Below, piece after piece: positions 11,140-61,310 of a stretch of DNA of 61,310 nt (the first letter of the stretch is position 1; the number at the start of each line of letters is the position of its first letter). The DNA comes from Pseudomonadota bacterium (GTDB lineage: Bacteria; Vulcanimicrobiota; Vulcanimicrobiia; Eremiobacterales; Eremiobacteraceae): the NCBI GenBank assembly GCA_021325335.1, contig JAJPHJ010000142.1:1-61310 (forward strand), in the 5' to 3' direction. The notes under the pieces are model-generated. The model was given only the letters and a program-made list of their open reading frames with translations. It was not told where the DNA came from and did no database searches. A program made the translations under genes and the position numbers.

Positions 11140-11176
11140 GGGGCGACTGTGTAGGGGGCGACTGGCAAGTCGCCCC
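11125..11176 (+). repeat. Three 15-bp tandem units ending in a family-1 palindromic element
   Basis: Three consecutive 15-mers start at 11125, 11140 and 11155: GGGGCGACCGTGTAG, GGGGCGACTGTGTAG and GGGGCGACTGGCAAG. The third opens into a perfect hairpin: arm GGGGCGACT (11155–11163), loop GGCA, arm AGTCGCCCC (11168–11176), with TGTAG on its 5' side. The first unit overlaps the end of the upstream dehydrogenase and gives its stop codon. The hairpin sits 14 nt before the cupin start and could also attenuate or terminate transcription. Confidence 0.85.
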
Positions 11177-11190
11177 GAACTTAGCATCTC

Positions 11191-11646
11191 GTGAAGAAAA
11201 AATTCGACCGGCAGTCGTTTTCCTGGAGCGGAGTGGCGCCTCAGCGTTATGCCGATGCCAACGACGACGGTGCCGGGCGCAGCTGGCGCAACACCTCGCG
11301 CCACATCATTAAAGGAAGAGAAGAAGGCGGGCGCTTCGACGTGCGGTACTTCGAGGTTGCGCAAGACGGCTTCACGAGTCTCGAACGCCACGCGCACGTT
11401 CATTCCGTCATCTGCGTGCGCGGTCGCGGATACGCCGTCGTGGGCGAAGAGATCCACGAAGTGGAGCCTTTCGACCACGTCTACGTTCCGGCGGATGCCG
11501 CGCACCAGTTCGTCAACGAGTCCGCAGAGCCGTTCGGTTTCCTGTGCATCGTGGATGCGGAGCGCGATCGCCCGCGCGCGCTTCAGCCCGACGAGCTGAT
11601 CTCGCTGCGAAGCAACGCAAAGATCGCAGGAAAGATTAGACTGTAG
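11191..11646 (+). CDS. Cupin-domain protein
   Basis: The product has 151 residues with a single conserved cupin barrel. Metal-binding motif 1 is seen as 'ERHAHVHSVICVRGRGYAVVG' minus the usual spacing detail, with His residues in 'RHAHVHS'; motif 2 is 'PFDHVYVPADAAHQFVNES'. Small cupins of this kind act as sugar or sugar-acid isomerases or as ligand-binding accessory proteins. The start is GTG. It is the last gene of the dehydrogenase cluster, separated from it by the palindromic repeat. It overlaps the 3' end of the convergent helicase-nuclease gene by 11 nt. Confidence 0.8.
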   Translation: MKKKFDRQSFSWSGVAPQRYADANDDGAGRSWRNTSRHIIKGREEGGRFDVRYFEVAQDGFTSLERHAHVHSVICVRGRGYAVVGEEIHEVEPFDHVYVPADAAHQFVNESAEPFGFLCIVDAERDRPRALQPDELISLRSNAKIAGKIRL

Positions 11647-14600
11647 CTTTTTCCGGCTGCGGACGAGAGCTGGTGCGTGGGTAGTCGCGGCAGGGAGCGT
11701 TGCGATAGACGCAGCTCCAGCACCACGCTCCAGGCCTGGCGCGTTCGTCACCGCGCTCCAAGCCCTCGCGGACCGCCCGGATGCGCGCGCGCAGTTCCGG
11801 CTCGTGCACGGGGTCGATCGGTTCGAGCGTAAACGTCGCGCCTGCGATCCGGCCGATAAGGCAGCGCTCGATCTCGATGCGATACACTTCGCGCGCGGCC
11901 AAGCGGTAAAGCGCCAGCTGCAGGCCATGGTCCGGCGACGGCTCACCGGTCTTGTAATCGACAAGGCACGCGCGCCCGGCTTCGTCTCGAGCGATGAGGT
12001 CGAGGTAGCCGAAGACGAGCGCCGGCGTGCCGTGCTCGCCGAAATCGAGCGTGAAGGGCGCCTCGACGTGAAGCGGTTTCCAGCCCGAGAGCTCGCGTTG
12101 TATTCGCCCGAGCACGTGGAGCGCTTCCTCGCGCTGCGAGCGCGAAGGTCCGGCACCCACAGTACGCAGCGCCGCGTCAAGATAAGCAGCGGGATCTGCG
12201 GGCGCACGGCCGTCGCGGCGATCGGCGGCCCATAACTCGAGCGCCTTGTGCAGCGTCTGTCCGTATTCTCCGGCGTTCTGCAAGGAATCGATGGGAGCGG
12301 CGTGGAGCGGCTCGAGGCCATCGACATCGTCATCTCGGCTTACGCTTGCCGCACGTCCCTGCGCGCCAAGGTCGGGCAAGCGCAGCACGGTTCGGTATGC
12401 GGCTTGGCGAGGACAACGCTCGTATCGAGCGATGAGCGAGTAGGAGAGCGCCACCGCCAAGCGGCTTTTGTCCTCGCCTCGCGTCGCACGCCCTTTTCGC
12501 ACCACCGGGCGCGCCGATCCATTCACCGCTTGCGCCTGCAAGCGGCGTGCGTAGGGCGGCGCATCCTTAGGCGCGGGTTCTTCGGTGGGCCAACCGCGAG
12601 CTGCTAAGCCCTCGTTGAGGCGCGCGAAGTAGTCGTGCGGTTTTCCGCTCGGATTGCTTTTGGAGGGATGCAGGCGAGGCCCGCTCACGTACACGCGGTC
12701 GCGAGCTCGAGTCAGTGCTACGTAGAACAAGCGCAACTCTTCGGGTTGCTCTTTCTCGAGATCGCGCGGGATGTAGCCGTGCGCATCAGCGCGTAACTTC
12801 ACGCTTTGATAGTGGAAAGAACGGCCGCCATCAGGATTTTCAGCGTACAAGAGCGCTCCGCTCGCGTCATCCACGAAAAGCCGCGAGTCCGGGGCGAGCT
12901 GCGGCCACACGCCGAGCACGAACACGAAGGGCCACTCCAAGCCTTTCGCGGCGTGGATGGTCGAAATCGTGACGGCCTCTGCGGCGGTGACATCTGCTTC
13001 ACGCTCGTCGAAATCCACGTTCTCAAGCTCTTCGATGAAGCTGACGAAGTCGGCCGCTTGTGCCGCCGGCGAGCTCTCCGCAAAACTACGCGCAAGAGCC
13101 TCGAGCTTGGCGATGTTGGCGAGGGCTTGAGCGGCACGCGGATCGTCGCTCGCCGCCGCCTCTTGGGCGATCCTGGTTGCCTCGATGACCGCGGCGAGCG
13201 CCGTCGACAGCGGCAAAGCTGCGTGCGGCGCGAGTTCGTCGAGCAGGTTCCGAAGCGCGCTTGCGGCAGCTGCCGCTTCTCCGGCAAGCGCATCTCCTTC
13301 CGGCAATGCATCCAGGAGCGCGCGCCGCGCAAATGCAGTCTCCTCGGGTTCGAGGCCCAGGCCAAGCCGGGCGACCGCCGCATCGGATGCGCCGATCGCA
13401 GACGACTGCAGCGCCCGAGCGACGGCGAGCGAATCGAAGGGGTTCGCAAGCAGCCGCATCCAGGCGAGCGTGTCGCGGATTTCGGGCGCATCGTAGAATC
13501 CGACGCCGCCCACGAGCTTGAAGGGTATGCCGAACATGACCAGAGCTTCGGTCACCGGCTGGACGTTACGCTTCGTGCGCGAGAGTATCGCGATGTGGCG
13601 GGGTGAGATCGGTTCCGGTCCCGCACCCGTATCTACGGTCGTGCCGCTCGCCAAAAGAGCGGCGATGCGTTGCGTCACCGCCTCAGCTTCGCGTTCGCGC
13701 GCGACCTCGATAGGGAGATAGCGATCCGAAGCCTCCCACACCGTATTGCAGAAGACGACCTGCTCGCCGGCCGGCCCGCGCTGGCCCTCGAGAGCTTGAG
13801 CCTCAGGGTGCGCGACTGCGATCGTCGCGTGAGCGAGATCGAGAATCTCCTGGCGCGAGCGCCGGTTATGCGCAAGAGCGTAGCGAGCGACGGCAGGGCG
13901 GTCCAAGAAGAGCGCAAAGTTTTCGGGCCGCGCGCCGCGGAAGCTGAAGATGCTTTGCAGCGTATCGCCGACGACCATGACACCGCCGAGCTCCTCGCCG
14001 AAAAGCGCTTCGAGCAGCCGATGCTGCGAGAGGTCGGTGTCTTGGTACTCGTCCACGATGCAGCACGCGTACCTGCGCTGAAACTCCGCCCGCAACTGCG
14101 GACGCTCGCGGAGCGCCTGCTGCGCGCGCACGAGCAGGTCGGCGTAGGTAAGCGCATGACGCGCCGCGAGGCGTGCCGCGAACCTGCGTAGGATGCCCGC
14201 GCACGCCTGGACGCGCTCCAGCTCCCATGCGATCTCCGCCCGGAATTGTTCCTCGCTCTGACGCAACTCCACGCTCCATTCCTTGCCGCGCTGGGGTTTG
14301 AGATAGGGTTTGCGCAGTTCGCGATACGGAGCGCTTTCGAAGGCGGAGGCTGCCTCAAGCGCGCGCTCCTCGAACGCGTCGATCGACAGGTTGCGTTGCT
14401 TGAGCTGCTGGTCGATCGAGAAGAGTTCGCGTCGGATCTCTTCCTGGTTGAAGGCGCGCATGGGAAATCCAGCTGATTGCCCGGCCGGGTCCTCGAGGAA
14501 CTCGTCGAAGGCGCGCTTGAACTCGACGCGCGCTTCGACGTCTTCGAGGACTTCGGTCTCGGGCGCCATGCCGACTTCATACGCATGGTCCCTCAGAAGA

Positions 14601-14878
14601 CTCCAGGCGAAGGCGTGAAAGGTGGAGCAAGTCGGCGCGATGTCGTGGAGGCGGCGCGCGATGCGCGCGCGCAGCTCGGCCGCCGCCTTTTTGGCGAACG
14701 TCAGTAACAAGATCTTGTCCGCCCGGCAGATGCCCTGCTCGTGCAAGGCCGCGACGCGTTCGACGATGGTGAAGGTCTTGCCGGTGCCCGCGCCGGCTTC
14801 GACCACTGCGGCCTGGGCGATGCCATGCCGGACGACGGCATGCTGCGCGGGCGTAAGCGTCGCGTCGTTCTCGCTCAC
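11636..14878 (-). CDS. UvrD-family helicase with C-terminal RecB-type nuclease (AdnA/AdnB-like or AddA-like subunit)
   Basis: The product has 1080 residues. Superfamily 1A motifs run in order: Walker A AGAGTGKT (28–35), 'LTFAKKAAAEL', Walker B 'DEYQDTD', 'QSIFSFRGA', 'TISTIHAAKGLEWPFVFV' and 'FYVALTRARDRVYV'. The C-terminus has a PD-(D/E)XK nuclease core ('GYLDLI', 'LVDYKTGE', 'LQLALYRLA') and cysteines 'YERCPRQ' plus 'CWSCVYRNAPC', suited to the Fe-S cluster of AddB/AdnA/Cas4-type nucleases. It starts inside the stop of the upstream helicase-nuclease gene (4-nt overlap). Both subunits carry motor plus nuclease, the mycobacterial AdnAB arrangement for processing double-strand breaks. Confidence 0.88.
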   Translation of the reverse strand: MSENDATLTPAQHAVVRHGIAQAAVVEAGAGTGKTFTIVERVAALHEQGICRADKILLLTFAKKAAAELRARIARRLHDIAPTCSTFHAFAWSLLRDHAYEVGMAPETEVLEDVEARVEFKRAFDEFLEDPAGQSAGFPMRAFNQEEIRRELFSIDQQLKQRNLSIDAFEERALEAASAFESAPYRELRKPYLKPQRGKEWSVELRQSEEQFRAEIAWELERVQACAGILRRFAARLAARHALTYADLLVRAQQALRERPQLRAEFQRRYACCIVDEYQDTDLSQHRLLEALFGEELGGVMVVGDTLQSIFSFRGARPENFALFLDRPAVARYALAHNRRSRQEILDLAHATIAVAHPEAQALEGQRGPAGEQVVFCNTVWEASDRYLPIEVAREREAEAVTQRIAALLASGTTVDTGAGPEPISPRHIAILSRTKRNVQPVTEALVMFGIPFKLVGGVGFYDAPEIRDTLAWMRLLANPFDSLAVARALQSSAIGASDAAVARLGLGLEPEETAFARRALLDALPEGDALAGEAAAAASALRNLLDELAPHAALPLSTALAAVIEATRIAQEAAASDDPRAAQALANIAKLEALARSFAESSPAAQAADFVSFIEELENVDFDEREADVTAAEAVTISTIHAAKGLEWPFVFVLGVWPQLAPDSRLFVDDASGALLYAENPDGGRSFHYQSVKLRADAHGYIPRDLEKEQPEELRLFYVALTRARDRVYVSGPRLHPSKSNPSGKPHDYFARLNEGLAARGWPTEEPAPKDAPPYARRLQAQAVNGSARPVVRKGRATRGEDKSRLAVALSYSLIARYERCPRQAAYRTVLRLPDLGAQGRAASVSRDDDVDGLEPLHAAPIDSLQNAGEYGQTLHKALELWAADRRDGRAPADPAAYLDAALRTVGAGPSRSQREEALHVLGRIQRELSGWKPLHVEAPFTLDFGEHGTPALVFGYLDLIARDEAGRACLVDYKTGEPSPDHGLQLALYRLAAREVYRIEIERCLIGRIAGATFTLEPIDPVHEPELRARIRAVREGLERGDERARPGAWCWSCVYRNAPCRDYPRTSSRPQPEKATV

Positions 14879-17800
14879 GCGGGGATCGCTCCAGCTCCCG
14901 GGCAGATGCGGCGGTAGTCGCAGGTCGTGCAGCGCTGCTCGTCCACGGTCGTGGCGAAGTGCTCGAGAGAGCCATCGCTGCAGATACGCGCGATGCGCGC
15001 CGCGATGTCACGCCGCGCGCGCTCGACTTCGCCCCTGCTTATCGATTTCTTCGAACCGCTCTCCCCGCCGTCGACGATGTCCGTGCGGTCGCGCAGCACG
15101 CCGCTCTCTTCGATGTTCTTGCCCCGGAAATACACGTATTCCACAGCGGCCACGCGCGCGTTGAAGCGGGTCTCCACCGCCGGGATGTAGAGCAACGCTT
15201 GCACGTTCAAACCTTTCGGCGCGTCCCCGAAGAGCACGTCGCCGGCATCGAGCCGTTCGAACGCGTTGCGCAGCGCCGGCGCGAGACTGGCGTGCTTGCG
15301 CCCCGCTTTGTAGTCGCGGATGACGAGTTCGCCGGAGGCGAGCCGGTCGACGCGGTCCACCCTTCCATGGATCGTGAGCCCGTCGAGCGTCGAGCTCACC
15401 ACAAGTTCTCGGGCGATCACGCGAAATGGCGAAGCCGCGGCCTCGCTCGCGAGAAGGCCGACATACTCGTCAAGTTTTCGGGCGAGCTCTTCGCGCTCGA
15501 ATCGCAACACTGCGCCGCGATCGTCCGCGGCTTCCCCGAAGAGGAGCGCGCGTAACGTCTCTCTGCAGCGCGCCGCGACCGCATCGGCATCGCGCTCGCT
15601 TTCGAAGTCCGCCTCGATCTCGTGAAGCCCGGCGAGCAGCTCGTGAAGGCGCTGTCCGTAACGGGTCGAGTCATCCTCGTGGCGCGGCAAATGCAAGACG
15701 TCGCCGTAGTAGAAGCGCCTTGGGCATGCGATGAAACGATCGATGCTCGTCGGAGACAGCGCCTCGATCGGCACAACGATACCTGTAGGGGGCGCCTGGA
15801 AAGGCGCCCTTTTTTCAACGACGCCTGTGGGGGCCGATTGGAAAATCGCCCCTCTTTCGTCCGGGTGCGCCCCTTGCGGGGCGACTTGCCAGTCGCCTCC
15901 TACATTTAACTCGGGAGAGGCGTCCTCTTCAGGAGGGATGGCTCGCGTGAAACTCGAGGCTTGGAGGTCAACGCCGTCATCGTCAACTTGCGCGGCCGTG
16001 ACGAACACCTCCGAGCGTGCGCGCGTGAGCGCGACATACCAAAGGGAATGCTCCTCGGTCCGCGCCCCGTCGTCGTCGACGAAGATGTCGGCGCCAAAAC
16101 GACGCAGCTTCTCAACGCCGTTTTGCGGCAGCAGCCGGTTTTGACGGATGCCGGCCGGCAACACGCCCTCGAGCGCTTGGGGGATCGCCACAAAATCGAA
16201 TTCCAGTCCTTTCGCCGCGTGGATGGAAATCACGCGTACCCCTTCCGAAGCGGAGGGCGGGGCTTGGCGGGTATCGGCGAGCAGGGCGATCGTTTCGTCC
16301 AGATTCTCGACGAATGCGGCGCATGTCGCATCGCCCCGGTCGTCAGAAGCTGCTAGCTCTTCGTAATCCGACGCCGCTTCGAAAAGCGACGCGAGCCGTG
16401 CGGGCGAGGCATGCCGATCGAAGCCTTCCACCGAAGCCTTCTCTCGCACCGGCCGCAGCAAATCAAGTCCACCCACGATGGCGCCGAGGAGCTGACGCGG
16501 CCCTTTGCGTTCGAACGCGTCGCGGCAGGGTCGCAGGGCCGCGAGGAGGTCGCGCATCGGAGTTGCGCCGGCGGGCGGGGTGCGCGCAAGCATCGCCTCG
16601 GGATCGGTGATCCCCGCTCGCCGCCCTTCGTCAAACGCGAAGCGCACGTCGATCGGCCGGTAGCCGACGATCGGGTTGACGAGCAAACGCTGCCACAGGG
16701 CGGTGTCGCTGGGCTGCGCGAGCAGCCGTAACGCTGTGAGCGTCGCGTCGACCAGCCCGTCGGCGTGAAAACCCGCAGTCGGCTGAGCGGCCACCGGAAC
16801 CTTTGCCTCGCGTAAGGCTTCCATCACGAGTTCCTGGTATGGTCGCGTTTGCCGCAAGAGCACCGCCACATCCCGCGGATGCGATCCCGCTTCGATTTTG
16901 CCGACCACCGCATCACGGATCGAGCGCACCTCGTCCTCGACCGTGCGTGGGCGCTCGAACGTCACAGAACCGCGGTGGCGTGCCTCTGCGGCCATGGTCT
17001 TCGAGCCCTCGTCAAGCGAAGGGTCAGCGTTTGCGACATCGAGGATCGCCTGCGCCGACCGCCGGTTGTCGCGCAACTCCAAGATCGTGCAGGCGAAGCG
17101 CCGGCGCGCTTCATCCACGTTGTCGGGAGACGCGCCGCGAAAGCGGTAGATCGATTGATTCTTGTCACCGACGAAGCAAAAGGTGGGCGCAGGGGTGATG
17201 ACCGCTTGCATCGCTTCGAGAAACTCAAGCTGCATGCGGTCGCTATCTTGGAACTCGTCGACGAGGACATGGCGAAAGCGGGCCGCACGGAGCCACGCCG
17301 AAGCGGGACTGCCGGCATCGCGCAAAGCGCGTTCCGCTTCGTTGACGAGATCCCGGAAGTCGTGCAGGTCGAGCCGCAGTCGCTGTGCTTCCATACCGGC
17401 GTAGACGGATGCGAGGTCGCGCAGGCGCGGATCGGACCCTGCGATCGCCGCGATGCGCTCTGCGCTGATGCCTCGGCCCTTGAGCTGCGCGATGACGTTG
17501 AGGCAATCGGTCGCGAACTGCGGGCTTTGGGCGACGCTCGGGTCGAAGCTCTCGAATCGACCTCTCTCGCGCATGAGGCGTCGCCACAGCAGGCGCTCCT
17601 TGACGGGTGTGAGCAAGCCGCGATCGCGGACGGGGAGGCGTTCGCCATCCAAGAGTCTGGCGCAAAAACTGTGGAAGGTCTTGACGAATAGCTCCGAGAC
17701 GGCAAGGCCGGTGCCACGCGCTTCGTGCATGCGCAAGAGCACCCGATCGCGCATCTCATCGGCCGCCCGGCGCGAGAAGGTGAGCACAAGGATTTGGTGG

Positions 17801-17949
17801 GGCGGTACTCCATCACCGACCAGGGAGGCGAAGCGCCGTGCGAGGGTCTCTGTTTTGCCGGTCCCCGGCCCCGCAAGCACGAGCAGATTGGCGCCGCGCT
17901 GGTCGATGACCGCCTGCTGCTGGTCGCTGGGAGGGAATAGATCGAGCAC
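14875..17949 (-). CDS. UvrD-family helicase with RecB-type nuclease (AdnAB-like partner) carrying an in-frame repeat insertion
   Basis: The product has 1024 residues. Helicase motifs: Walker A AGPGTGKT (26–33), 'LTFSRRAADEM', 'VDEFQDSDRM', 'QSIYRFRGAS', 'VRVISIHAAKGLEFDFV' and 'WYVALTRARSEVFV'. Nuclease part: 'IHGRVDRVDR', 'LVIRDYKAGRK', and cysteines 'CPRRFYYG' with 'CTTCDYRRIC', again a likely Fe-S nuclease. Residues about 684–722, exactly between motor and nuclease, are encoded by three palindromic elements (see repeat at 15784) and read 'GGDWQVAPQG', 'GAIFQSAPTG' and 'RAPFQAPPTG'. The frame stays open. The first gene of a two-gene operon; the start ATG is uncontested. Confidence 0.88.
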   Translation of the reverse strand: MLDLFPPSDQQQAVIDQRGANLLVLAGPGTGKTETLARRFASLVGDGVPPHQILVLTFSRRAADEMRDRVLLRMHEARGTGLAVSELFVKTFHSFCARLLDGERLPVRDRGLLTPVKERLLWRRLMRERGRFESFDPSVAQSPQFATDCLNVIAQLKGRGISAERIAAIAGSDPRLRDLASVYAGMEAQRLRLDLHDFRDLVNEAERALRDAGSPASAWLRAARFRHVLVDEFQDSDRMQLEFLEAMQAVITPAPTFCFVGDKNQSIYRFRGASPDNVDEARRRFACTILELRDNRRSAQAILDVANADPSLDEGSKTMAAEARHRGSVTFERPRTVEDEVRSIRDAVVGKIEAGSHPRDVAVLLRQTRPYQELVMEALREAKVPVAAQPTAGFHADGLVDATLTALRLLAQPSDTALWQRLLVNPIVGYRPIDVRFAFDEGRRAGITDPEAMLARTPPAGATPMRDLLAALRPCRDAFERKGPRQLLGAIVGGLDLLRPVREKASVEGFDRHASPARLASLFEAASDYEELAASDDRGDATCAAFVENLDETIALLADTRQAPPSASEGVRVISIHAAKGLEFDFVAIPQALEGVLPAGIRQNRLLPQNGVEKLRRFGADIFVDDDGARTEEHSLWYVALTRARSEVFVTAAQVDDDGVDLQASSFTRAIPPEEDASPELNVGGDWQVAPQGAHPDERGAIFQSAPTGVVEKRAPFQAPPTGIVVPIEALSPTSIDRFIACPRRFYYGDVLHLPRHEDDSTRYGQRLHELLAGLHEIEADFESERDADAVAARCRETLRALLFGEAADDRGAVLRFEREELARKLDEYVGLLASEAAASPFRVIARELVVSSTLDGLTIHGRVDRVDRLASGELVIRDYKAGRKHASLAPALRNAFERLDAGDVLFGDAPKGLNVQALLYIPAVETRFNARVAAVEYVYFRGKNIEESGVLRDRTDIVDGGESGSKKSISRGEVERARRDIAARIARICSDGSLEHFATTVDEQRCTTCDYRRICPGAGAIPA
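15784..15903 (-). repeat. Three palindromic elements inserted in frame in the helicase-nuclease gene
   Basis: Element a: GGGCGCCT (15790–15797), loop GGAA, AGGCGCCC (15802–15809), preceded by TGTAG. Element b: imperfect arm in 15829–15839, loop GGAA, AATCGCCCC (15844–15852). Element c: GGGGCGACT (15878–15886), loop TGCC, AGTCGCC (15891–15897), followed by CTACA, i.e. the same element inverted. Arms differ between copies but remain largely self-complementary. Total length is about 120 bp, a multiple of three, so the coding frame on the minus strand is kept. Confidence 0.85.
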
Positions 17950-19774: not shown

Positions 19775-19802
19775 TGTAGGGGGCGATTGGAAAATCGCCC
19801 CC
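19775..19802 (+). repeat. Family-1 palindromic element between convergent genes
   Basis: TGTAG flank (19775–19779), arm GGGGGCGATT (19779–19788), loop GGAA, arm AATCGCCCCC (19793–19802): a perfect 10-bp stem. It lies between the plus-strand gene region ending before it and the minus-strand TPR gene ending at 19821, and is followed by a T-rich stretch, so it may double as a bidirectional terminator. Confidence 0.85.
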
Positions 19803-20904: not shown

Positions 20905-21909
20905 TTAGGGGTTCATTGCCGGGAGGCGGATGGTGAAAACGCTGCCCTCGCCAAGCGTGCTGCGAGCCGTCACCTCGCCGCCGTGCGCGCGCGCGATCCA
21001 CCGGCACAACGGCAGGCCTAAGCCATGGACCTCGCTCGCTCCGTTTCGCTGTGCGCCGTTGCTCGTCGCCCCATTGACGCGTTGGTAGCGCTCGAAGATG
21101 CGCTCGAGATCGTCCGCCGGTATGCCGCCACCCTTATCGCTCACCGCGACGAAGGCCGTGTCGCGGTTTTGCCACACGGATATGTCGACCGTCGAACGCT
21201 CGCGCCCGTGTTTGATCGCATTGTCCACGAGATTGCCGACCAGTTGCGACAGCTTCAGTTCGTCGCCCATGACGACCGCGCTTTCGCTGCGTCCAAGTTT
21301 GAGATCGACCGTCCGGGCTAAGGCGAGCGGCGCGAGATCGCGGACGACGCCGTTGACGACGGCACGCAGATCCGTGGGCTCGCGGTCGAGCGCGCTGTCA
21401 GCGTCCAGATGGGAGAGCGTGATGAGCTGATCGATGAGCCGCTGCATGCGCTGGGCTTGCTCGTCGATGATGCGCAGCTGGTCTCGTGCGCCGTCGGGCA
21501 GCGATCCGTCTGCCAAGCCGACGGAAGCCTCGGTGCGGATGACGGCGAGCGGGGTACGCAAATCGTGAGATGCGTCGTTTGTGAACTGCCGCTGCAACGC
21601 GATGGCGCGTTCGAGGGGACGAAGCGTGATCTTCGCGAGAAAGGCGGCGACCGCCACGACGAAGACAAGCCCGATCCCGTTGGCGATGAGCAAACGCACC
21701 AAGTACACGTCGAGCATGCGGTGCGCAGCCGCCACGATGCCGGCATCATCTCGGAATGGTTCGATGTCCTGGAACACGACCATCGAGAGGAGCACGTAGA
21801 CGATGATCGAGAACGCCGCCAGCAGCAATGCGAGCAGGGCCGCGTACGCGAGCGTGAGGCGAACGCGCGGCGCCCCGATGTTCGTCATGACGCCCCGCTT
21901 GTCGATCAT
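20905..21909 (-). CDS. Two-component sensor histidine kinase
   Basis: The product has 334 residues from the ATG at 21909, which overlaps the response-regulator stop by 4 nt. Two TM helices (about 18–46 and 70–92) enclose a very short periplasmic loop. The H-box is 'SHDLRTPLAVI' with His115 as the phosphorylation site. The N box 'QLVGNLVDNAIKHG' and G boxes 'VSDKGGGIPADDL' and 'HGLGLPLCRWIARAHGG' are intact. The short sensing loop suggests that it reads a membrane signal or an accessory protein rather than binding a ligand itself. Confidence 0.9.
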   Translation of the reverse strand: MIDKRGVMTNIGAPRVRLTLAYAALLALLLAAFSIIVYVLLSMVVFQDIEPFRDDAGIVAAAHRMLDVYLVRLLIANGIGLVFVVAVAAFLAKITLRPLERAIALQRQFTNDASHDLRTPLAVIRTEASVGLADGSLPDGARDQLRIIDEQAQRMQRLIDQLITLSHLDADSALDREPTDLRAVVNGVVRDLAPLALARTVDLKLGRSESAVVMGDELKLSQLVGNLVDNAIKHGRERSTVDISVWQNRDTAFVAVSDKGGGIPADDLERIFERYQRVNGATSNGAQRNGASEVHGLGLPLCRWIARAHGGEVTARSTLGEGSVFTIRLPAMNP

Positions 21910-22580
21910 GCCTTGTCGATCGTGTATCCTACGCCGCGCACCGTGCGGATGAATTGATCCCCGCAGGCAGCCGAGAGCTTGCGTCGCAGCATCTTGACGT
22001 AGACTTCGAGGATGTTCGAATTCCCCCCGTGTTCGCCGCCCCACAGGCGGTCCAAAATCGAGTCTTTGGTGAGCACGATCCCCGCGTTTTCCATCAGGTA
22101 GAGCAAGAGCCGGTATTCGGTCCGCGTGAGGTGCAAGACGCGGCCGTCGCACGCGAATTGATGGCGCAGCACGTCGATAGAGAGCTTGCCGACCGTGACG
22201 TTCCGAGGCTTGACCTCGTTCTTGGGACGCCGCAGGAGCGCGTGCACGCGCGCCAGCAACTCGGGGAACGCAAACGGCTTGGGCAGATAGTCGTCGGCAC
22301 CGCTGTTGAGTCCGGTCACGCGATCGGACACGGCGTTGCGGGCGGTGAGCATCAATATGGGGGTAGAGATGCCTTGCTTGCGAGCTTCGGCGCAGACGGA
22401 AAGACCGTCCCGGCCGGGCAGCAGCACGTCCAGGATGGCGACCTGGTAGTCGTTGCCGCATAACTCGTGCAGGCCGTTGTTGCCATCGCCGACCGCTGTC
22501 ACGGAGAACTTCTGCGCTTCGAGCGCCCTTCGTAAAGAGGATGACAGGCTCGGATCATCCTCGACCAGCAAGACTCTCAT
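21906..22580 (-). CDS. OmpR/PhoB-family response regulator
   Basis: The product has 224 residues. The receiver domain has acidic pocket Asp8/Asp9, phospho-acceptor Asp51 ('VAILDVLLPGRDG'), a switch Thr ('LMLTARN') and Lys ('LPKPF'). The C-terminal winged helix is of OmpR type ('LTRTEYRLLLYLMENAG', 'VYVKMLRRKL', 'IRTVRGVGYTID'). It is the first gene of the operon that continues with its cognate kinase, a small exported protein and a TPR protein. The region upstream (22581–22646) holds the likely promoter. Confidence 0.92.
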   Translation of the reverse strand: MRVLLVEDDPSLSSSLRRALEAQKFSVTAVGDGNNGLHELCGNDYQVAILDVLLPGRDGLSVCAEARKQGISTPILMLTARNAVSDRVTGLNSGADDYLPKPFAFPELLARVHALLRRPKNEVKPRNVTVGKLSIDVLRHQFACDGRVLHLTRTEYRLLLYLMENAGIVLTKDSILDRLWGGEHGGNSNILEVYVKMLRRKLSAACGDQFIRTVRGVGYTIDKA

Positions 22581-24191: not shown

Positions 24192-24251
24192 GGGGCGACT
24201 TTCCAGTCGCCCCCTACGGCTAATGGGGCGACTTTCCAGTCGCCCCCTACA
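24192..24251 (-). repeat. Two tandem family-1 palindromic elements between convergent genes
   Basis: Copy 1: GGGGCGACT (24192–24200), TTCC, AGTCGCCCC (24205–24213), then CCTAC. Copy 2: GGGGCGACT (24225–24233), TTCC, AGTCGCCCC (24238–24246), then CCTACA. On the minus strand each reads TGTAG/CGTAG flank, arm, GGAA loop, arm, the same direction as the plus-strand copies elsewhere. Placement between two stop codons suggests a bidirectional terminator function. Confidence 0.88.
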
Positions 24252-28028: not shown

Positions 28029-30131
28029 GTGATGAGCAAGCGAGCGCGACCGTCGGCCACGCGCAAGAAAGCGCATCGCTTCGCTACGCTCCGGAAGCGG
28101 CGGCAAGAAGAACCCTATCTTTTCGAGGCGATCGAGCGCCGCCAGCGGCAGCAGCAAGCGCGCTTGATCGCACTGCGTGCCGGCTTTCGGGATCATGCGC
28201 GTGCCGCTGACAGCATCGAGAACCGGCGCGAAGAATACGTGGAGATCGCGCGACCGGTTCCGTCGACCGCGATACCGCCCGCGATCCTCACTGCGATCGC
28301 CGCATCATTCGTCGCACCGCTCGTGCTCGCGATCGTCGGCGGCACGCTCAAGCCGGCGCCGGCCCCCCAAGTCGCCCGGTCGCATGCGTCGCCCGTCCAC
28401 GTAACTGGCACGAATGCATCCGCCCACAGTCATGTCGCGAATACATTCGCGACGGCTACAGTCGGTAGGACTCATCCGACGTCTACATTCGGCGGGACCC
28501 ATGTAGCTCGCGCAAATTCCTTTGCGCGTGAGCAAGCACCGCCTGCGACCCATGGAGCTCGCGCGAATGCGTCCGCGCGCCCGCCCGCAGCCCCCGCGAG
28601 CAACCGCCCATCGATCGGCGGCCGTTTCATAGCGTCTTTGCTTCAGTCGATCTTTGGTGTCGCTCCGCAATCGACGCCAGCGACCGCGCACCGCAAAGTC
28701 TCCAGCACCCGGGTCGCCTTCAAACCGATGCCGGCTTCGCATGCGGCGACGACGCCGGCGAAGCGCCTTCTCCCGTCTCCGTGGTCGCTCAGTGCCGACG
28801 GCACCTGGGTCGCCTCGCTGGCCGCACCAGCCTCGATGCCGGGAGCTGCGTTTTCAGCCTCGACCGGCCAACTCATCGAACGCGAGCGTTCGGCGGTAGC
28901 GCCGGATGGAGCCACGGTCACCATCGGCTGGTCGCGTTCGGTGGTCGTAAATATCTCGTCGCAAGGCCAGACGCTCACGAAGACGCTGCCGGCGCCCGAT
29001 GCAGGCATTGAGGCGTTCGACGTCGCCGCTGCCGCCGTCGGCCCGCACCTGGTGGACGTCGGGTGGACACCGCTTGATGCCTCAGCGCAAGTGAGCGGCT
29101 ATGAGATCTTCCGTTCGAGCGGCGAGGGCGAGCGCCCCGAACTCATCGCGACGCTGCCTGCGACCAAGCACTCCTACCACGATAGCGGGGTCGAGCCGAA
29201 CGCTCGCTATCGCTACAGCGTTGCTGCCGAGACGAGCGAGGAATCGATCCAAGCCAGCGCCCTCGTGGTGCAGACGCCCGGCGCGTTGCCCTCCGCCTCT
29301 GCGGGAGCCGTCAGCGGCAAGGGGATGTTCCTGTACTTCTCGTCGCTTGCGGGCGACCCGCGGAACTTCCATCATTACAATCCGATCCGCGTGGTCGCCG
29401 AAGCGCAACGGACGGGCATCCACGTCCTCGAGCTACGCATGGCCCGTGGCGCCTGCACCATGGCGCAGACCCAAGCCGCTCACGCCTGGCTCGACGAGCT
29501 CATCGATGCGGCCGCATCCGCCAACATCAAGCTCCTCGCCTGGACGGTTCCCCGTCGGGCCACTACCCAGGATCTCGCAGAGACGATCGCCGCCGCAGAG
29601 TACGTCACGCCGAGCGGCAACGGCTTTGACGGTCTGGCGCTCGACTTGGAAACCGGGGACAATTATATGGGCGACGGACCGAAGGCGCGCGAGCGGATGG
29701 TCCAATACATCCATGACGTGCGCGCGGCCACGGGTCCGCACTACCTGATCGTGGCCACCGTCGCGTCGCCGCGGTTCGGTAATCAAAGCGACTATCCGTA
29801 TGCGGGGATCGCCCACTATGCCGACGTCCTGCAGCCCATGGAGTACTGGCATTACTTCGACGAAGCCGCGCATCACGAGTACGGTCGTGGCGAAGTCGCC
29901 GGTGCCGCCGCCGCCGCGGTGACGCAGACGCGACAACTCGCCGGACGTGACATTCCGGTCAACGTCGCCGGACAGAGCGTGGCATTGGAGGGCACGGACG
30001 CACCTTCAGGACGCGAGATCCGCTGGTCGCTCGATGCGTCGAAATCTGGCGGTGCGATTGGCGAGACCTTCTTCGACTGGGCGGGCACCGGCCCGGACGC
30101 ATGGGCCGCAATCCAGGCGTTTGACTGGTAG
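28029..30131 (+). CDS. Large surface protein: TM anchor, repeat-derived linker, FN3-like domain, TIM-barrel hydrolase-like domain
   Basis: The product has 700 residues. A basic cytosolic N-terminus (to about residue 77) is followed by one TM helix ('AILTAIAASFVAPLVLAIVGG'-like, about 78–102). Residues about 120–190 are an Ala/Ser/Thr/His-rich linker encoded by palindromic elements ('HVARANSFAR', 'HGARANASAR'). A fibronectin-III-like segment covers about 335–415 ('LVDVGWTPLDASAQVSGYEI'). The C-terminal ~270 residues resemble a glycoside-hydrolase-type TIM barrel ('GFDGLALDLETGDNYM', 'YADVLQPMEYWHYF'), with Asp/Glu in 'DLETGD' as candidate catalytic acids. A surface carbohydrate- or peptidoglycan-related role is inference. 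Confidence 0.7.
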   Translation: MMSKRARPSATRKKAHRFATLRKRRQEEPYLFEAIERRQRQQQARLIALRAGFRDHARAADSIENRREEYVEIARPVPSTAIPPAILTAIAASFVAPLVLAIVGGTLKPAPAPQVARSHASPVHVTGTNASAHSHVANTFATATVGRTHPTSTFGGTHVARANSFAREQAPPATHGARANASARPPAAPASNRPSIGGRFIASLLQSIFGVAPQSTPATAHRKVSSTRVAFKPMPASHAATTPAKRLLPSPWSLSADGTWVASLAAPASMPGAAFSASTGQLIERERSAVAPDGATVTIGWSRSVVVNISSQGQTLTKTLPAPDAGIEAFDVAAAAVGPHLVDVGWTPLDASAQVSGYEIFRSSGEGERPELIATLPATKHSYHDSGVEPNARYRYSVAAETSEESIQASALVVQTPGALPSASAGAVSGKGMFLYFSSLAGDPRNFHHYNPIRVVAEAQRTGIHVLELRMARGACTMAQTQAAHAWLDELIDAAASANIKLLAWTVPRRATTQDLAETIAAAEYVTPSGNGFDGLALDLETGDNYMGDGPKARERMVQYIHDVRAATGPHYLIVATVASPRFGNQSDYPYAGIAHYADVLQPMEYWHYFDEAAHHEYGRGEVAGAAAAAVTQTRQLAGRDIPVNVAGQSVALEGTDAPSGREIRWSLDASKSGGAIGETFFDWAGTGPDAWAAIQAFDW
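28398..28585 (+). repeat. Cluster of about five palindromic elements inside the coding sequence
   Basis: Element B: GTCGCGAA (28434–28441), TACA, TTCGCGAC (28446–28453), then CTACA. B2: GTCGG (28461–28465) … CCGAC (28476–28480), then CTACA at 28483. C: TGTAG flank (28502), GCTCGCGCAAA (28506–28516), TTCC, TTTGCGCG…TGAGC (28521–28533). D (28551–28585) and A (28398–28430) are more degenerate relatives. C closely matches the isolated copy at 42931. Every element keeps the reading frame open and they jointly encode the protein's low-complexity linker. Confidence 0.7.
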
Positions 30132-56079: not shown

Positions 56080-58701
56080 TTGAAGACTCTTTGCACGCTC
56101 ATGCTTTTCTGCTGCCTGTTCGCCGTCGCGCCGGCGGCGCGCGCCGATGATGCGGCCGGCCCCGACGCGGGCACCGGTCCTGCGACGTACACCACCTTCA
56201 TCCAAGGCGCGCAAGTCCAAAACGGGTTGTTCAATATCATCCGCAAGGCGGGCAAGGTCTACATCGAGGTCGCCCCGTCCCAACTTGATTCGGACTTCAT
56301 CGTCACCGCCGAGCTTGCGAACGGCCTGGGTGGCTACGGCGTCCTGCCCGGCGGCATCAGCGCCACGTTCAATGCGCATATTCTGCGCTTCTCTCGGAAC
56401 GACGACAAGATCGTCGTGACGTTGCCCAATGAATACTTCATCGCTCCCGGCAATGATGCTGCGCAGCGCGCCGTGACGCGGACGTTCGCGAATTCCGTGG
56501 TAGCGGTGGCACCGATCGCGGCGACGGATGCTGCAACGGGACATGTCGTCTTCGATGCGTCGTTCTTGCTCGGTGACTTTTTTGACCTCACTGCGGCGCT
56601 GCGCCAAATCACCGGTCCGGACCATCCTGACCAAGCCTACAGCCTCGACATGGACCAAACGCTCTTCGGACCGACGAAGGCTTTCCCGCAGAACGTGGTC
56701 ATAGACGCCGATCAGACCTGGCACAGCGACAATCCCCAGGTCGTCGACAACGTGCCCGACCCCAGATCATTCTCGATGCGCGTGGCCTACAACATCATGC
56801 AGCCGCCCGATAGCACCGGCTACATGCCCCGTCTTGCCGACGACCGCATCGGATTCTTCGACTCCGCGTATCTGAATTTTGCCAAGGATACGGACTACAC
56901 GCGCGTCGTTCACTACGTGATCCGCTGGAATCTGCAGCCTTCGGATCCGACGAAGCGCGTCTCCCCAGCGAAGCAGCCTATCGTTTACTACCTTTCCAAC
57001 TCGATTCCGACGCGCTACCGGGCGACGATTCGTACGGCGATTCTTCGTTGGAACGACGCCTTTGCACGCGTCGGCATCAGCGATGCGATTGAGGTCAAGG
57101 ATCAGCCGGCCGATGCAAGCTGGGATCCGGACGACATCCGCTACAACACCGTCCTGTGGCTCACCGAGTCCAACAGCGGCGCATTCGCTGCAGCGGGACC
57201 AACGTACGATCCGCGCAACGGGATGGCGTTCCGCGGCAATATCGTGATCGACGCGGATTGGCCGAACTACCTCACGACCACGGGCCAGTATTTCGCAAAC
57301 CCGGCGAATAGCGCGCGCCAGAGAACCATTGGGGACGAGCGCGAGCTCATGCTCGGCGTGCGCCAAGAGGCTGGGTTCGGACGCGTGGCGCTCGCGCTGG
57401 AAGGCCAGCCGCTCACGGGCCCGGCCCTAGACAAATACCTCGACGATGCGCTCTTGTGGACCATCATGCACGAGTCGGGACATGCGCTCGGGCTCATGCA
57501 CAACTTCGCGGGCACGCAAGCCTACAGCATCAAGCAGATGCAGAGCAAACAGTTCACGGATGCGCACGGTCTGTCGGCATCCGTCATGGAGTATGTGGGC
57601 ATCAACGTCTGGCCCAAAGGCAAGTCGCAAGGCGACTACTGGATGACCCACCTAGGTCCGTACGACTACCACGCGATCCAATACGGCTATGCCCGGATTC
57701 CCGGCGCGCGCTCGCCGGACGCCGAGCGGTCGACGCTCAACGCTTGGGCGGGCCAGTGGACGAATCCACTGTACCGTTTTGCCAGCGATGAGGATGCGAC
57801 GTACCAGGGCGCGCACGCCATCGACCCGCGCGTGGCGCGCTGGGATCTCACGAGCGACCCCCTCGGTTGGGCCCAAAACCGGCTCGCGTTTTCGAGCGCT
57901 CTCTTGAACAAGCTCGACGCGCGCTGGCCGCAGCCGGGGAACACGTACGATCAGGAACGCTACGCTTTCGAATTCGTCATGTTCGAGAAGTTCAACGCCG
58001 CGATTCAGCCCGAGCACTTCATCGCAGGCGAGTACCTCTCTCGCTCCCACGCGGGCGACCCGGGCGCGGGGCAACCCCTCGTGCAAGTCCCGCGCGCGCA
58101 AGAAGTGCGTGCCTTCGGCATGCTGGACCGGTACGTGCTCGGTGACAACGCCTGGAGCTTCTCGCCTGCGACGCTCAACCGCATGGTGTACACCGAGTGG
58201 GAGAGTGCTCCGGGCGCCGCTTGGGGGTACAGCCCTCCAGCGCGTCACGACGAACCCGTGGCCGAGATGGCTGCGGGGTTCGCGACCCAAGTGCTGACGA
58301 TGATCTACGACCCGCTCATGCTCGAGCGGTTGGATGACTTGCCGCTCAAGGCTAAGCCCGGATCCACGATGACTCTTCCCGACCTGTTCGATTGGACGCA
58401 GGCTTCGATCTATCGCGACTTGAGCGACCCCAAGCTGCGCACGATCGATCCCGTGCACCGTGCCGTGCAGCAGTGGTATGCGCGCAAGCTGGCACAGATC
58501 TGGCTTGCGCCCGACGATGGCACGCCATACGACGCCCAGTCGCTGGCACGGGCCAAACTCGTCGCCTTGCGGGCGGATCTCGGAACGGCTCTCGGCCGCT
58601 CCACGCCCGACGAGCTCACGCGTGCACACCTCGCGAGCTTGCAGGACGTCGTAGCGCGCGCGCTCGACGCCCGTCAAATCGTGCCAAGTCCGAAGATGTA
58701 G
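56080..58701 (+). CDS. Exported zinc-dependent metalloprotease (DUF5117/DUF4953-type), copy 1
   Basis: The product has 873 residues from a TTG at 56080, preceded by GGGAGG at 5 nt. It gives the signal peptide 'LCTLMLFCCLFAVAPAARA'; a GTG at 56056 is the alternative. The metzincin-like zinc site HESGHALGLMH is at residues 464–474 ('HExxHxxGxxH'). The N-terminal ~330 residues are the DUF5117 beta domain ('GLFNIIRKAGKVYIEVAPSQ'). It is an exported endopeptidase. A paralog starts 9 nt after its stop. Confidence 0.9.
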   Translation: MKTLCTLMLFCCLFAVAPAARADDAAGPDAGTGPATYTTFIQGAQVQNGLFNIIRKAGKVYIEVAPSQLDSDFIVTAELANGLGGYGVLPGGISATFNAHILRFSRNDDKIVVTLPNEYFIAPGNDAAQRAVTRTFANSVVAVAPIAATDAATGHVVFDASFLLGDFFDLTAALRQITGPDHPDQAYSLDMDQTLFGPTKAFPQNVVIDADQTWHSDNPQVVDNVPDPRSFSMRVAYNIMQPPDSTGYMPRLADDRIGFFDSAYLNFAKDTDYTRVVHYVIRWNLQPSDPTKRVSPAKQPIVYYLSNSIPTRYRATIRTAILRWNDAFARVGISDAIEVKDQPADASWDPDDIRYNTVLWLTESNSGAFAAAGPTYDPRNGMAFRGNIVIDADWPNYLTTTGQYFANPANSARQRTIGDERELMLGVRQEAGFGRVALALEGQPLTGPALDKYLDDALLWTIMHESGHALGLMHNFAGTQAYSIKQMQSKQFTDAHGLSASVMEYVGINVWPKGKSQGDYWMTHLGPYDYHAIQYGYARIPGARSPDAERSTLNAWAGQWTNPLYRFASDEDATYQGAHAIDPRVARWDLTSDPLGWAQNRLAFSSALLNKLDARWPQPGNTYDQERYAFEFVMFEKFNAAIQPEHFIAGEYLSRSHAGDPGAGQPLVQVPRAQEVRAFGMLDRYVLGDNAWSFSPATLNRMVYTEWESAPGAAWGYSPPARHDEPVAEMAAGFATQVLTMIYDPLMLERLDDLPLKAKPGSTMTLPDLFDWTQASIYRDLSDPKLRTIDPVHRAVQQWYARKLAQIWLAPDDGTPYDAQSLARAKLVALRADLGTALGRSTPDELTRAHLASLQDVVARALDARQIVPSPKM

Positions 58702-58710
58702 GGAGAGCAC

Positions 58711-61310
58711 ATGAAGATCCGCCTCACGCTCCTGACGCTCATCCTCTGCGCGCTCGCGCCGGTGCTCGCGCGAGCGGACGACAGCCCGCCGCCTGCCGCC
58801 TACGCGACGTTCGTCGCCGGCGCGCAGGTCCAGAACGGCCTTTTCAACGTCATCCGCAAGAGCGGAAAGGTCTATCTGGAAATCGCGCCCTCGCAGCTTG
58901 ACACCGACTTCATCATCAGTGCGGAACAAGTCAACGGCATCGGGGGCTGGGGCGTCATCCCGGGCGGTATCAGCTCGGTCGACCGCATTGTCCGCTTCTC
59001 GCGCAACGACGATAAGATCGTCGTCACGTTTCCGAACACGTACTTCATCGCGCCGGGCAACGACCCGGCGCAGCGCGCGATCAAGCGCACCTTCGCCGAT
59101 TCGGTCGCCGGGGTCGCGCCGATCGCGGCCGTGGATGCCGCTAGCGGCCACGTGGTCTTTGACGTCTCCTTCCTGCTTGGCGACGTCTACAATCTCAGCG
59201 CGGCGCTCAAGGGCGTAACCGCAACGGACGACCCGGAACAGCAGTACCGCCTCGACGCGGATCGCACGCTCTTCGGACCGACGAAAGCCTTCCCGGACAA
59301 CGTCATCATCACGGCGGATCAGACCTGGATGTGCGACAATCCGCAGACGATCGACAATGTGCCCGACCCGCGAACTCTTCTCATCCGCGTGGCGTACAAC
59401 TTCGTGCTGCCGCCGCACGACGGCGACTACATGCCGCGTCTCGCGGACACGCGCGTCGGCTACTTCGATACCGCCTTCTTGAATTTCGCAACCGATACGG
59501 ACTACTCGCGCATCAACCGCTACGTGGTGCGCTGGAACATGCAGCCCTCGGACCCGAGCAAGGCGATGTCGCCGGCCAAGCATCCCATGATCTACTACAT
59601 GTCGGATAATGTTCCGACGCAATACCGAGAGTCGATCCGCAAAGGCATCGAACGCTGGAACGCGGCCTTCGAGCGCATCGGGATCTCGAATGCGATCCAA
59701 GTGAAAGATCAGCCAACCGATCCGAACTACGATCCGGACGACGTGCGCTATAATACGATCATCTGGATGACCGAGTCGAATTCAGGCGGCTACGCCGCCG
59801 AAAGCCAGATCTGGGATCCGCGCACCGGACAGGAGATCCGCACGAACATCGTGATCGACGCAGACGTCATGGGCTTCTCGAATATCTCCTGGCAGTTTCT
59901 CACGAACCCCACGGCCGGAAGCGCGGGCAATCAGATCCGCGGGCTCGATGTGGATTATGCGATCGGCAAAGAGCGCGAGGCGACGTTCGGACGCGTGGCG
60001 CTGGCAGCGATGGGCCATCCGCTCACGGGTTCAGCGCTCGCGACCTACAACGATCAGCTGATGCAATCGTTCATCGTCCACGAATCCGGGCACGGCTTTG
60101 GGCTGCAGCACAACTTCATCAGCTCGATGGCGTATACCGCGAAACAAGTCCAAAACAAATCATTCACGGAGAAATATGGCGTGGCCACGTCCGTGATGGA
60201 ATACGCACCTCTGAATCTGTGGCCGAAGGGCTACCCCCAGGGAACCTATTGGCAAGTTGTGCTCGGTCCGTACGACTATCACGCAATCCACTGGGGATAC
60301 GCTCGGGTGCCCGGTGCGCGCACGCCGCAAGACGAGGTCCCGACCCTCCACCGCTGGGCGAGCGCCTGGGCCAACCCGCTCTACCGTTTCGCGAGCGACG
60401 AGGACGTTGCGTATGGAAGCGCGCACGCGATCGACCCGCGCATCGCGCAATTCGATCTGACAAACGATCCCCTCTCGTGGGGGGAGACCCAACTCAAACT
60501 CAGTCACGACCTCTTCTCGACCCTCGATCGCCACTGGCCGCAGCCGGGCAACACCTACGATCAAGAGCGGGCTGCGTTCGGCACCGTCTTGCAAGTGTAC
60601 GTCGTCGCCGCGACATGGCCCGAGCACTACATCGGCGGTGAGTATCTCTCACGCTCCTATCTCGGCGACCCGGACTCGCAGCCGCCGCTCGTGCAGGTGC
60701 CGCGGACGAACGAGCTGCGGGCGTTCCGGCTGCTCGACAAGTACCTCTTTTCGGATGGGGCGTGGAGTTTTTCGCCTGCGACCCTGAACCGGCTCGTCTA
60801 TAGCGAGTGGGAGTCATCGCCAAACGCCTTATGGGCCTACAACCCGCAGCCGCGGCACGACATGCCGGTTGCGGAAATCGCCACAGGGATTGCTGAAGGG
60901 GAGCTGACGACGATGTTCCAGCCGCTCATGCTCGAGCGCGTGGACGACCTCGCCTTGAAGACGAAGCCCGGCGCCACGATGAGCCTGACCGATCTGTTCG
61001 ACTGGACGCAGGGCTCTCTGTATGGAGATCTTCACGACGCAAAGCTGCAGAATATCGGCGAGGTGCACCGCGCCATCCAGCAGTGGTACGCGCGTAAACT
61101 CGTGCAGATCTGGCTCGCGCCCGAACCCGCGACCCCGTACGACGCCCAATCGATGGCGCGCGCGGAGCTCGTCGATCTGCGGGGCTCGCTCGCGACGGCG
61201 CTCGGCCGGCCTGGTTTGGACGAGATGACCCGCGCGCATCTCGCAAGCCTGCAGGACGTGGTGGTTCGCGCCCTTGACGCCCGCCAGATGGTTCCCGCCC
61301 CCAAAATGTA
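58711..61310 (+). CDS. Exported zinc-dependent metalloprotease, copy 2 (last base of stop missing)
   Basis: The ATG at 58711, with GGGAG 5 nt upstream, opens 866 codons to the window edge, which ends '…CCC AAA ATG TA'; one more base would give the stop, as in copy 1. The signal is 'LTLLTLILCALAPVLARA'. The zinc site HESGHGFGLQHN starts at residue 457. It aligns along its full length with copy 1 ('AQVQNGLFNVIRKSGKVYLE', 'GNTYDQERAAF'). The two are a tandem duplication that has diverged. Confidence 0.9.
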   Translation, partial: MKIRLTLLTLILCALAPVLARADDSPPPAAYATFVAGAQVQNGLFNVIRKSGKVYLEIAPSQLDTDFIISAEQVNGIGGWGVIPGGISSVDRIVRFSRNDDKIVVTFPNTYFIAPGNDPAQRAIKRTFADSVAGVAPIAAVDAASGHVVFDVSFLLGDVYNLSAALKGVTATDDPEQQYRLDADRTLFGPTKAFPDNVIITADQTWMCDNPQTIDNVPDPRTLLIRVAYNFVLPPHDGDYMPRLADTRVGYFDTAFLNFATDTDYSRINRYVVRWNMQPSDPSKAMSPAKHPMIYYMSDNVPTQYRESIRKGIERWNAAFERIGISNAIQVKDQPTDPNYDPDDVRYNTIIWMTESNSGGYAAESQIWDPRTGQEIRTNIVIDADVMGFSNISWQFLTNPTAGSAGNQIRGLDVDYAIGKEREATFGRVALAAMGHPLTGSALATYNDQLMQSFIVHESGHGFGLQHNFISSMAYTAKQVQNKSFTEKYGVATSVMEYAPLNLWPKGYPQGTYWQVVLGPYDYHAIHWGYARVPGARTPQDEVPTLHRWASAWANPLYRFASDEDVAYGSAHAIDPRIAQFDLTNDPLSWGETQLKLSHDLFSTLDRHWPQPGNTYDQERAAFGTVLQVYVVAATWPEHYIGGEYLSRSYLGDPDSQPPLVQVPRTNELRAFRLLDKYLFSDGAWSFSPATLNRLVYSEWESSPNALWAYNPQPRHDMPVAEIATGIAEGELTTMFQPLMLERVDDLALKTKPGATMSLTDLFDWTQGSLYGDLHDAKLQNIGEVHRAIQQWYARKLVQIWLAPEPATPYDAQSMARAELVDLRGSLATALGRPGLDEMTRAHLASLQDVVVRALDARQMVPAPKM

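Follow-up and report, generated by a model that had tools for sequence, protein, structure and literature searches.

The gene for an AdnB-like helicase-nuclease in the 61,310-nt stretch of DNA analysed here (the window) carries three short palindromes that lie in frame, which raises the question of what these elements are, how they came to encode part of a protein and why they have persisted there. The genome (G000) is a fragmented MAG of 2.39 Mb in 149 contigs. The first-pass annotation had described a 1024-residue subunit left intact on both sides of three palindromes in both orientations, and this was borne out: the open reading frame has no internal stop or frameshift over its full length, the three copies lie in frame at the positions given in Table 1, and Pfam matches were found for UvrD-helicase (residues 9-285), UvrD_C (518-653) and PDDEXK_1 (731-1017). 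The nuclease residues H769, D865, D879 and K881 are invariant in the family alignment of the AdnB-like subunit, as are cysteines 742, 1007, 1010 and 1016, and a full-length ortholog is present in 11 same-family genomes, this one counted. The adjacent AdnA-like gene contains no REP, and the order of the two genes is the same in relatives. Because both ORFs share one architecture, each of the adjacent subunits combining, by Pfam, a UvrD motor with a nuclease domain of the RecB type, the pair was classified as AdnAB-like. PDB matches include the two-subunit helicase-nuclease entries 6ppj, 6ppr and 6ppu, which we take to be mycobacterial AdnAB. The NCBIfam scan gave matches well short of cut-off (pcrA, addA, recB and others), none of them to an AdnAB model; since no curated model there names the pair, only the term AdnAB-like is used.

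Table 1. Coordinates of the features of the window that are discussed in the text.
Feature	Position	Strand	Remarks
AdnB-like helicase-nuclease ORF	14875..17949	(-)	1024 aa, GTG start, open frame
Motor region, residues 1-653	15991..17949	(-)	Pfam UvrD-helicase and UvrD_C
REP array encoding interdomain linker, residues 683-722	15785..15903	(-)	between Pfam UvrD_C and PDDEXK_1
REP copy 1, GTAGGGGGCGCCTGGAAAGGCGCCC	15785..15809	(+)	antisense to gene
REP copy 2, GTGGGGGCCGATTGGAAAATCGCCC	15827..15851	(+)	antisense to gene
REP copy 3, GTAGGAGGCGACTGGCAAGTCGCCC	15879..15903	(-)	sense to gene; orientation opposite to that of copies 1 and 2
Predicted tryptic peptides across the array			GAIFQSAPTGVVEK, APFQAPPTGIVVPIEALSPTSIDR
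PD-(D/E)XK nuclease domain, residues 731-1017	14899..15759	(-)	Pfam PDDEXK_1
Partner AdnA-like helicase-nuclease	11636..14878	(-)	1080 aa; Pfam UvrD-helicase, UvrD_C, PDDEXK_1
Same-family REP	11151..11175	(+)	intergenic
Same-family REP	19776..19800	(+)	intergenic
Same-family REP	24193..24217	(-)	intergenic pair
Same-family REP	24226..24250	(-)	intergenic pair

As UvrD_C extends to residue 653 and PDDEXK_1 begins at residue 731, the array is interdomain. Copy 3 encodes residues 683-691 (VGGDWQVAP), copy 2 residues 700-708 (GAIFQSAPT) and copy 1 residues 714-722 (RAPFQAPPT). The earlier estimate of about 39 residues and 120 bp derived from the element holds for the array as a whole (residues 683-722, about 119 bp), but the palindrome cores account for only 75 bp of it. 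A distance of 42 bp (14 codons) separates copies 1 and 2, which share one reading frame and have similar upstream flanks (caacgatacct and caacgacgcct, respectively), which suggests that they arose by tandem duplication rather than by two insertions. The position had been described as a linker throughout the family; it is indeed length-variable, fixed anchors being separated by 42-80 residues in the ten orthologs from the same family. AlphaFold2 pLDDT was about 27-32 across residues 681-730, which fits the disordered loop expected for this segment but is weak evidence for it, alignment depth being low from about residue 670 onwards. Short repeats might have fused unrelated contigs within the gene during assembly, for which a MAG in 149 pieces with repeats at this very site gives some occasion. 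Yet the elements, at 25-26 bp, are far below usual read lengths, the frame and the homology run across the array with 45-55% identity to single orthologous genes, the same partner gene adjoins in relatives and the array copies can be told from the other copies by their sequence, all of which makes such an artefact extremely unlikely.

The array element conforms to the consensus GTAG-N-GGGCGAYT-GGNA-ARTCGCCC, that is, a GTAG tag at the 5' end and behind it a GC-rich palindrome some 20-40 bp long, the definition of a GTAG REP that was applied here. The 2.39-Mb genome contains 67 matches with up to two mismatches and 101 with up to three, against zero and one, respectively, for a reversed control, so the pattern in the array is not due to chance. 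Pairing in the stem is kept in 96-100% of 72 scored copies, with double changes from C-G to T-A in many of them and from A-T to C-G in array copy 1, and 59 of the 72 are intergenic according to our own gene caller. The first-pass annotation expected the insert to be absent elsewhere, and accordingly 11 of 13 same-family relatives had no match to the element, the remaining two having a single three-mismatch match each, no more than the reversed control. The family is thus dispersed, multi-copy, mainly intergenic and specific to this genome.

Three Y1-transposase genes were identified in the genome. One of them (C108:43201-43416) has seven copies of the array element around it, four direct and three inverted, and scored 99.4 bits against the NF047646 model (REP_Tyr_transpos, cut-off 80). 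The array element is therefore a GTAG-type REP with a cognate REP-associated tyrosine transposase (RAYT). From the general RAYT literature, we infer that the C108 enzyme would mobilise the element. All three transposases of this genome and the one found in the sister genus G005 exceeded the NF047646 cut-off, and the other two of this genome (L010 and L011, on C82 and C94) are flanked by their own GTAG hairpins, GTAGCGGCGGACCTTTAGGTCCGCC (10 copies) and GTAGTTCGCGCAAATTTATTTGCGC, forming two more REPtrons. The association with a RAYT bears directly on the comparison with Rickettsia palindromic elements (RPE) made in the first-pass annotation. A separate class of intragenic palindromes, RPE-like and unrelated to RAYT elements, would account for in-frame palindromic inserts, the hallmark of RPE (discussed in PMC3733652), but it is very improbable, as the same 25-bp sequence, with the same GTAG tag and orientation, flanks a RAYT gene and is found mostly between genes. 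What stands of the comparison is the in-frame palindromes; since the element is a RAYT-linked GTAG REP, RPE serve as an analogy only.

Elements of other families and further repeats were also noted. In the window, a REP of another family (28503-28528 (+), two mismatches) lies in frame in ORF 28029-30131, which encodes a protein of 700 aa that matches fn3 and GH18 weakly; the segment is of low complexity, and about 52 bp downstream there is a second, decayed unit. A membrane-type protein of 639 aa without a Pfam match, encoded at C144:2953-4872 of G000 (L150:1954-3873 (-)), contains three in-frame elements of at least two REP families, at residues 90, 114 and 271. Another REP family, GTAGGGCGGACCTTTAYGGTCCGCC, had 306 matches in G012, where tandem clusters occur, 47 in its congener G002 and six in G009. 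At the right end of the window, a long direct repeat (57367-58592 and 59977-61202, 2610 bp apart, about 70-73% identical) suggests two tandem paralogous genes. Putative in-gene REPs near N-termini at C44, C88 and C124 of this genome and two in G005 were set aside as probable mis-called starts. The codon-bias gene caller missed a histidine-kinase ORF (20905-22461), as did the order-3 model that replaced it, and calls of REPs inside genes were for this reason checked by hand.

The case is not an isolated one: in the sister genus G005, REPs of an unrelated family occupy the same linker and are also present in some ten further genes. The AdnB of G005, 50% identical to that of G000, holds GTAGTGCCGGGGCTTTAGCCCCGG in the linker with no mismatches, together with a diverged second copy that has paired stem changes. 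This element, unrelated to that of G000, is present in 236 copies in G005 and flanks the RAYT of that genome; 12 matches with two to three mismatches were found in G007, and none in the 12 other genomes searched. As the two families are unrelated, the sequences indicate that REPs reached one AdnB linker independently. The remaining nine AdnB linkers of the family showed no GTAG hairpin, and neither did those of the more distant class members inspected. Strong hairpins in the G007 linker lack the GTAG tag and were not counted as REPs.

To what extent REPs enter genes was surveyed in G005 (1.59 Mb, 172 REPs). A strict 150-nt coding filter dropped true linker cases and a relaxed version was used, by which 10 of the 172 REPs lay inside coding sequence as compared with 335 of 600 random positions. 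REPs are therefore strongly depleted in genes, and the copies found there look like survivors at permissive sites. The decorated genes encode AdnB, AdnA, PheT, CysS, PurD, a penicillin-binding protein, an IMS-family (ImuB-like) protein, a 2-oxoglutarate dehydrogenase E2-E1 fusion (two copies), a GT4 glycosyltransferase, a penicillin-amidase-family protein and an acyltransferase-like protein with the REP in its C-terminal tail; AdnA and the acyltransferase-like tail were missed by the filter and added by hand. Genes such as PheT and CysS are essential, and the decorated copies of these two are the only full-length ones found in G005. DNA-repair genes (AdnA, AdnB and the IMS-family gene) make up three of the about 11 decorated genes, a raw count that is suggestive and on which no claim of enrichment is made.

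Several survivors, that in AdnB among them, mark domain boundaries. The REP in PurD of G005 lies between GARS_A (ending at 296) and GARS_C (starting at 342), that in the GT4 glycosyltransferase at the boundary of two domains, that in the dehydrogenase E2 part between the lipoyl (ending at 78) and E3-binding (starting at 132) domains, and that in CysS after the catalytic domain (ending at 314). Others fall inside a Pfam match, namely in the AdnA nuclease, the PheT core, the transpeptidase domain of the penicillin-binding protein and the penicillin amidase; in alignments, those of AdnA and PheT fall in variable loops. The rule is hence permissive loops and linkers, not linkers alone. The PurD loop was reached in other genomes as well: G003 has there a one-mismatch copy of its own RAYT-linked REP and G010 a decayed REP, so that in two genera the loop between the ATP-grasp and C domains holds REPs, those in L300 and L299 (G003/G010) being unrelated to that in L294 (G005). 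In the E2-E1 fusion the G005 REPs are in the lipoyl linker (L208:450-4421 (-)); REP-like sequence in G002 and G012 (L320, L319) is in the next linker, not the lipoyl one. By inspection, the element of G000 is stop-free in five of six frames, being closed only where GTAG reads TAG, and that of G005 in three of six. Elements open in several frames need no special mechanism for in-frame survival. The frames used among the survivors look non-uniform, with counts too low for a test.

The array had been described as an insertion, and this stood in so far as the linker is REP-encoded; the array is not clearly an added insert. In 16 REP-free AdnB orthologs, 41-80 residues separate the same anchors. 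The G000 linker of 63 residues would shrink to 23 without the whole array and to 38 without the palindrome cores only, and that of G005 from 47 to about 27-31 without its REPs. Because both fall below the floor of the orthologs when the REPs are taken away, REPs may replace linker as well as add to it, and these lengths are hard to reconcile with an ancestral linker that was simply extended. Two histories would account for them, a loss of flanking linker that followed insertion or linkers that were short from the start; the cases are too few to choose, but they speak against an extra insert as the full account.

These lengths speak for domestication of the array, in which the ancestral linker would have been lost and the REP peptide would supply the tether length needed to position or swing the nuclease, the array being selected for length. 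Both REP-bearing AdnB linkers are within the ortholog range only with their REPs, and CysS of G005 behaves likewise, its segment going from 18 to 10 residues without the REP (16-24 in the other orthologs). Moreover, the tether of E. coli RecB must be long and flexible enough for nuclease action at Chi (PMC7644769). However, such cases are few, the AdnA, PheT, PurD and E2 segments remain within or near the ortholog range without REP cores, the lineages may have had short linkers before insertion, and the decorated proteins are mostly unrelated to one another. Domestication is consequently a tentative reading that we consider unlikely. Equally doubtful is the broader idea that REPs are a recurrent source of interdomain linkers in this family, a selfish 25-bp hairpin repeatedly replacing, and not just lengthening, the tether in a RecBCD-type enzyme as well as loops in other core proteins, with length kept in range and sequence transposon-derived.

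The palindromes might instead act at the level of RNA or DNA, pausing ribosomes, stabilising the mRNA or terminating antisense transcription, with the peptide incidental. Stable hairpins are predicted in the mRNA, and copy 1 on the plus strand, antisense to the gene, forms a GC hairpin followed by six T. Nevertheless, promoter, terminator and Rfam scans returned nothing at the array, with no Rfam match anywhere in the window; the T run is absent from most other copies, the orientation is mixed, and such a role leaves unexplained why unrelated REPs share one linker. It is accordingly improbable.

The explanation that we favour with considerable confidence is that three GTAG REPs dispersed by a RAYT persist as a translated, stop-free linker in a working AdnB-like enzyme. 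The C108 RAYT would have spread the REPs through the genome, and some would have landed by chance in the AdnB-like gene, one being then tandemly duplicated. Purifying selection would remove most REPs from genes, survival being limited to places where the peptide is tolerated. The array would have been kept because the frame in which it is read contains no stop and because the motor-nuclease tether is flexible and length-tolerant, and it would be translated as about 40 linker residues of an active enzyme. The identity, copy number, RAYT association, frame and position of the element are directly observed, as is an independent REP family at the same place in G005; tolerance is the probable cause of persistence. 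The locus illustrates cleanly, and in a form open to testing, how mobile DNA can supply the sequence of a protein, and the independent REPs in one AdnB linker and one PurD loop constitute natural insertion experiments marking peptide-tolerant sites.

Intragenic GTAG REPs were already published in 2013 (PMC3733652; BMC Genomics 2013, 14:522), and the present case is a better-documented further example. The available text of that article describes GTAG REPs inside ORFs, single or grouped and encoding up to tens of residues, many of them in replication and repair genes (UvrABCD, recBCD, UvrD/REP helicase), proposes that they sit in linkers or loops, and mentions two recB genes of Xanthomonas in which different REPs occupy roughly one site. 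The likeness to the palindromes studied here, including their occurrence in repair helicase-nucleases, is therefore close. What differs is the AdnAB-type enzyme, the uncultured lineage, the use of ortholog alignments and linker lengths, and the unrelated REPs in two genera; in the same portion of the article no AdnAB case was found, nor ortholog-aligned decorated synthetases, PurD or REPs replacing linker residues. Our data support what it says on the recurrence of REPs in helicase-nucleases of recombination and repair; for RecBCD, which belongs to this class, tether length is known to matter.

Compared with known REP/RAYT systems (REPtrons), the family shares a Y1 transposase passing NF047646, inverted clusters of GTAG hairpins and a dispersed, genome-specific distribution, and differs in that some copies, a minority, are intragenic and free of stops in the frame of the gene. 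With RPE it has in common palindromic DNA read in frame within protein genes, but the element is 25 bp long, mostly intergenic and tied to a RAYT, whose gene it flanks, and so does not belong to that RAYT-independent family; we know of no RAYT link for RPE-1. The encoded segment corresponds to the tether of RecB, a flexible stretch between motor and nuclease (residues 870-940) that carries a nuclease-blocking helix (PMC5030088) and that has to be of suitable length and flexibility for control by Chi (PMC7644769). In E. coli the tether consists of native sequence, whereas that of the AdnB-like subunit is mostly REP-encoded. As both the length and the helix of the RecB tether are functional, a tether made of REPs could, by analogy, have functional effects here as well.
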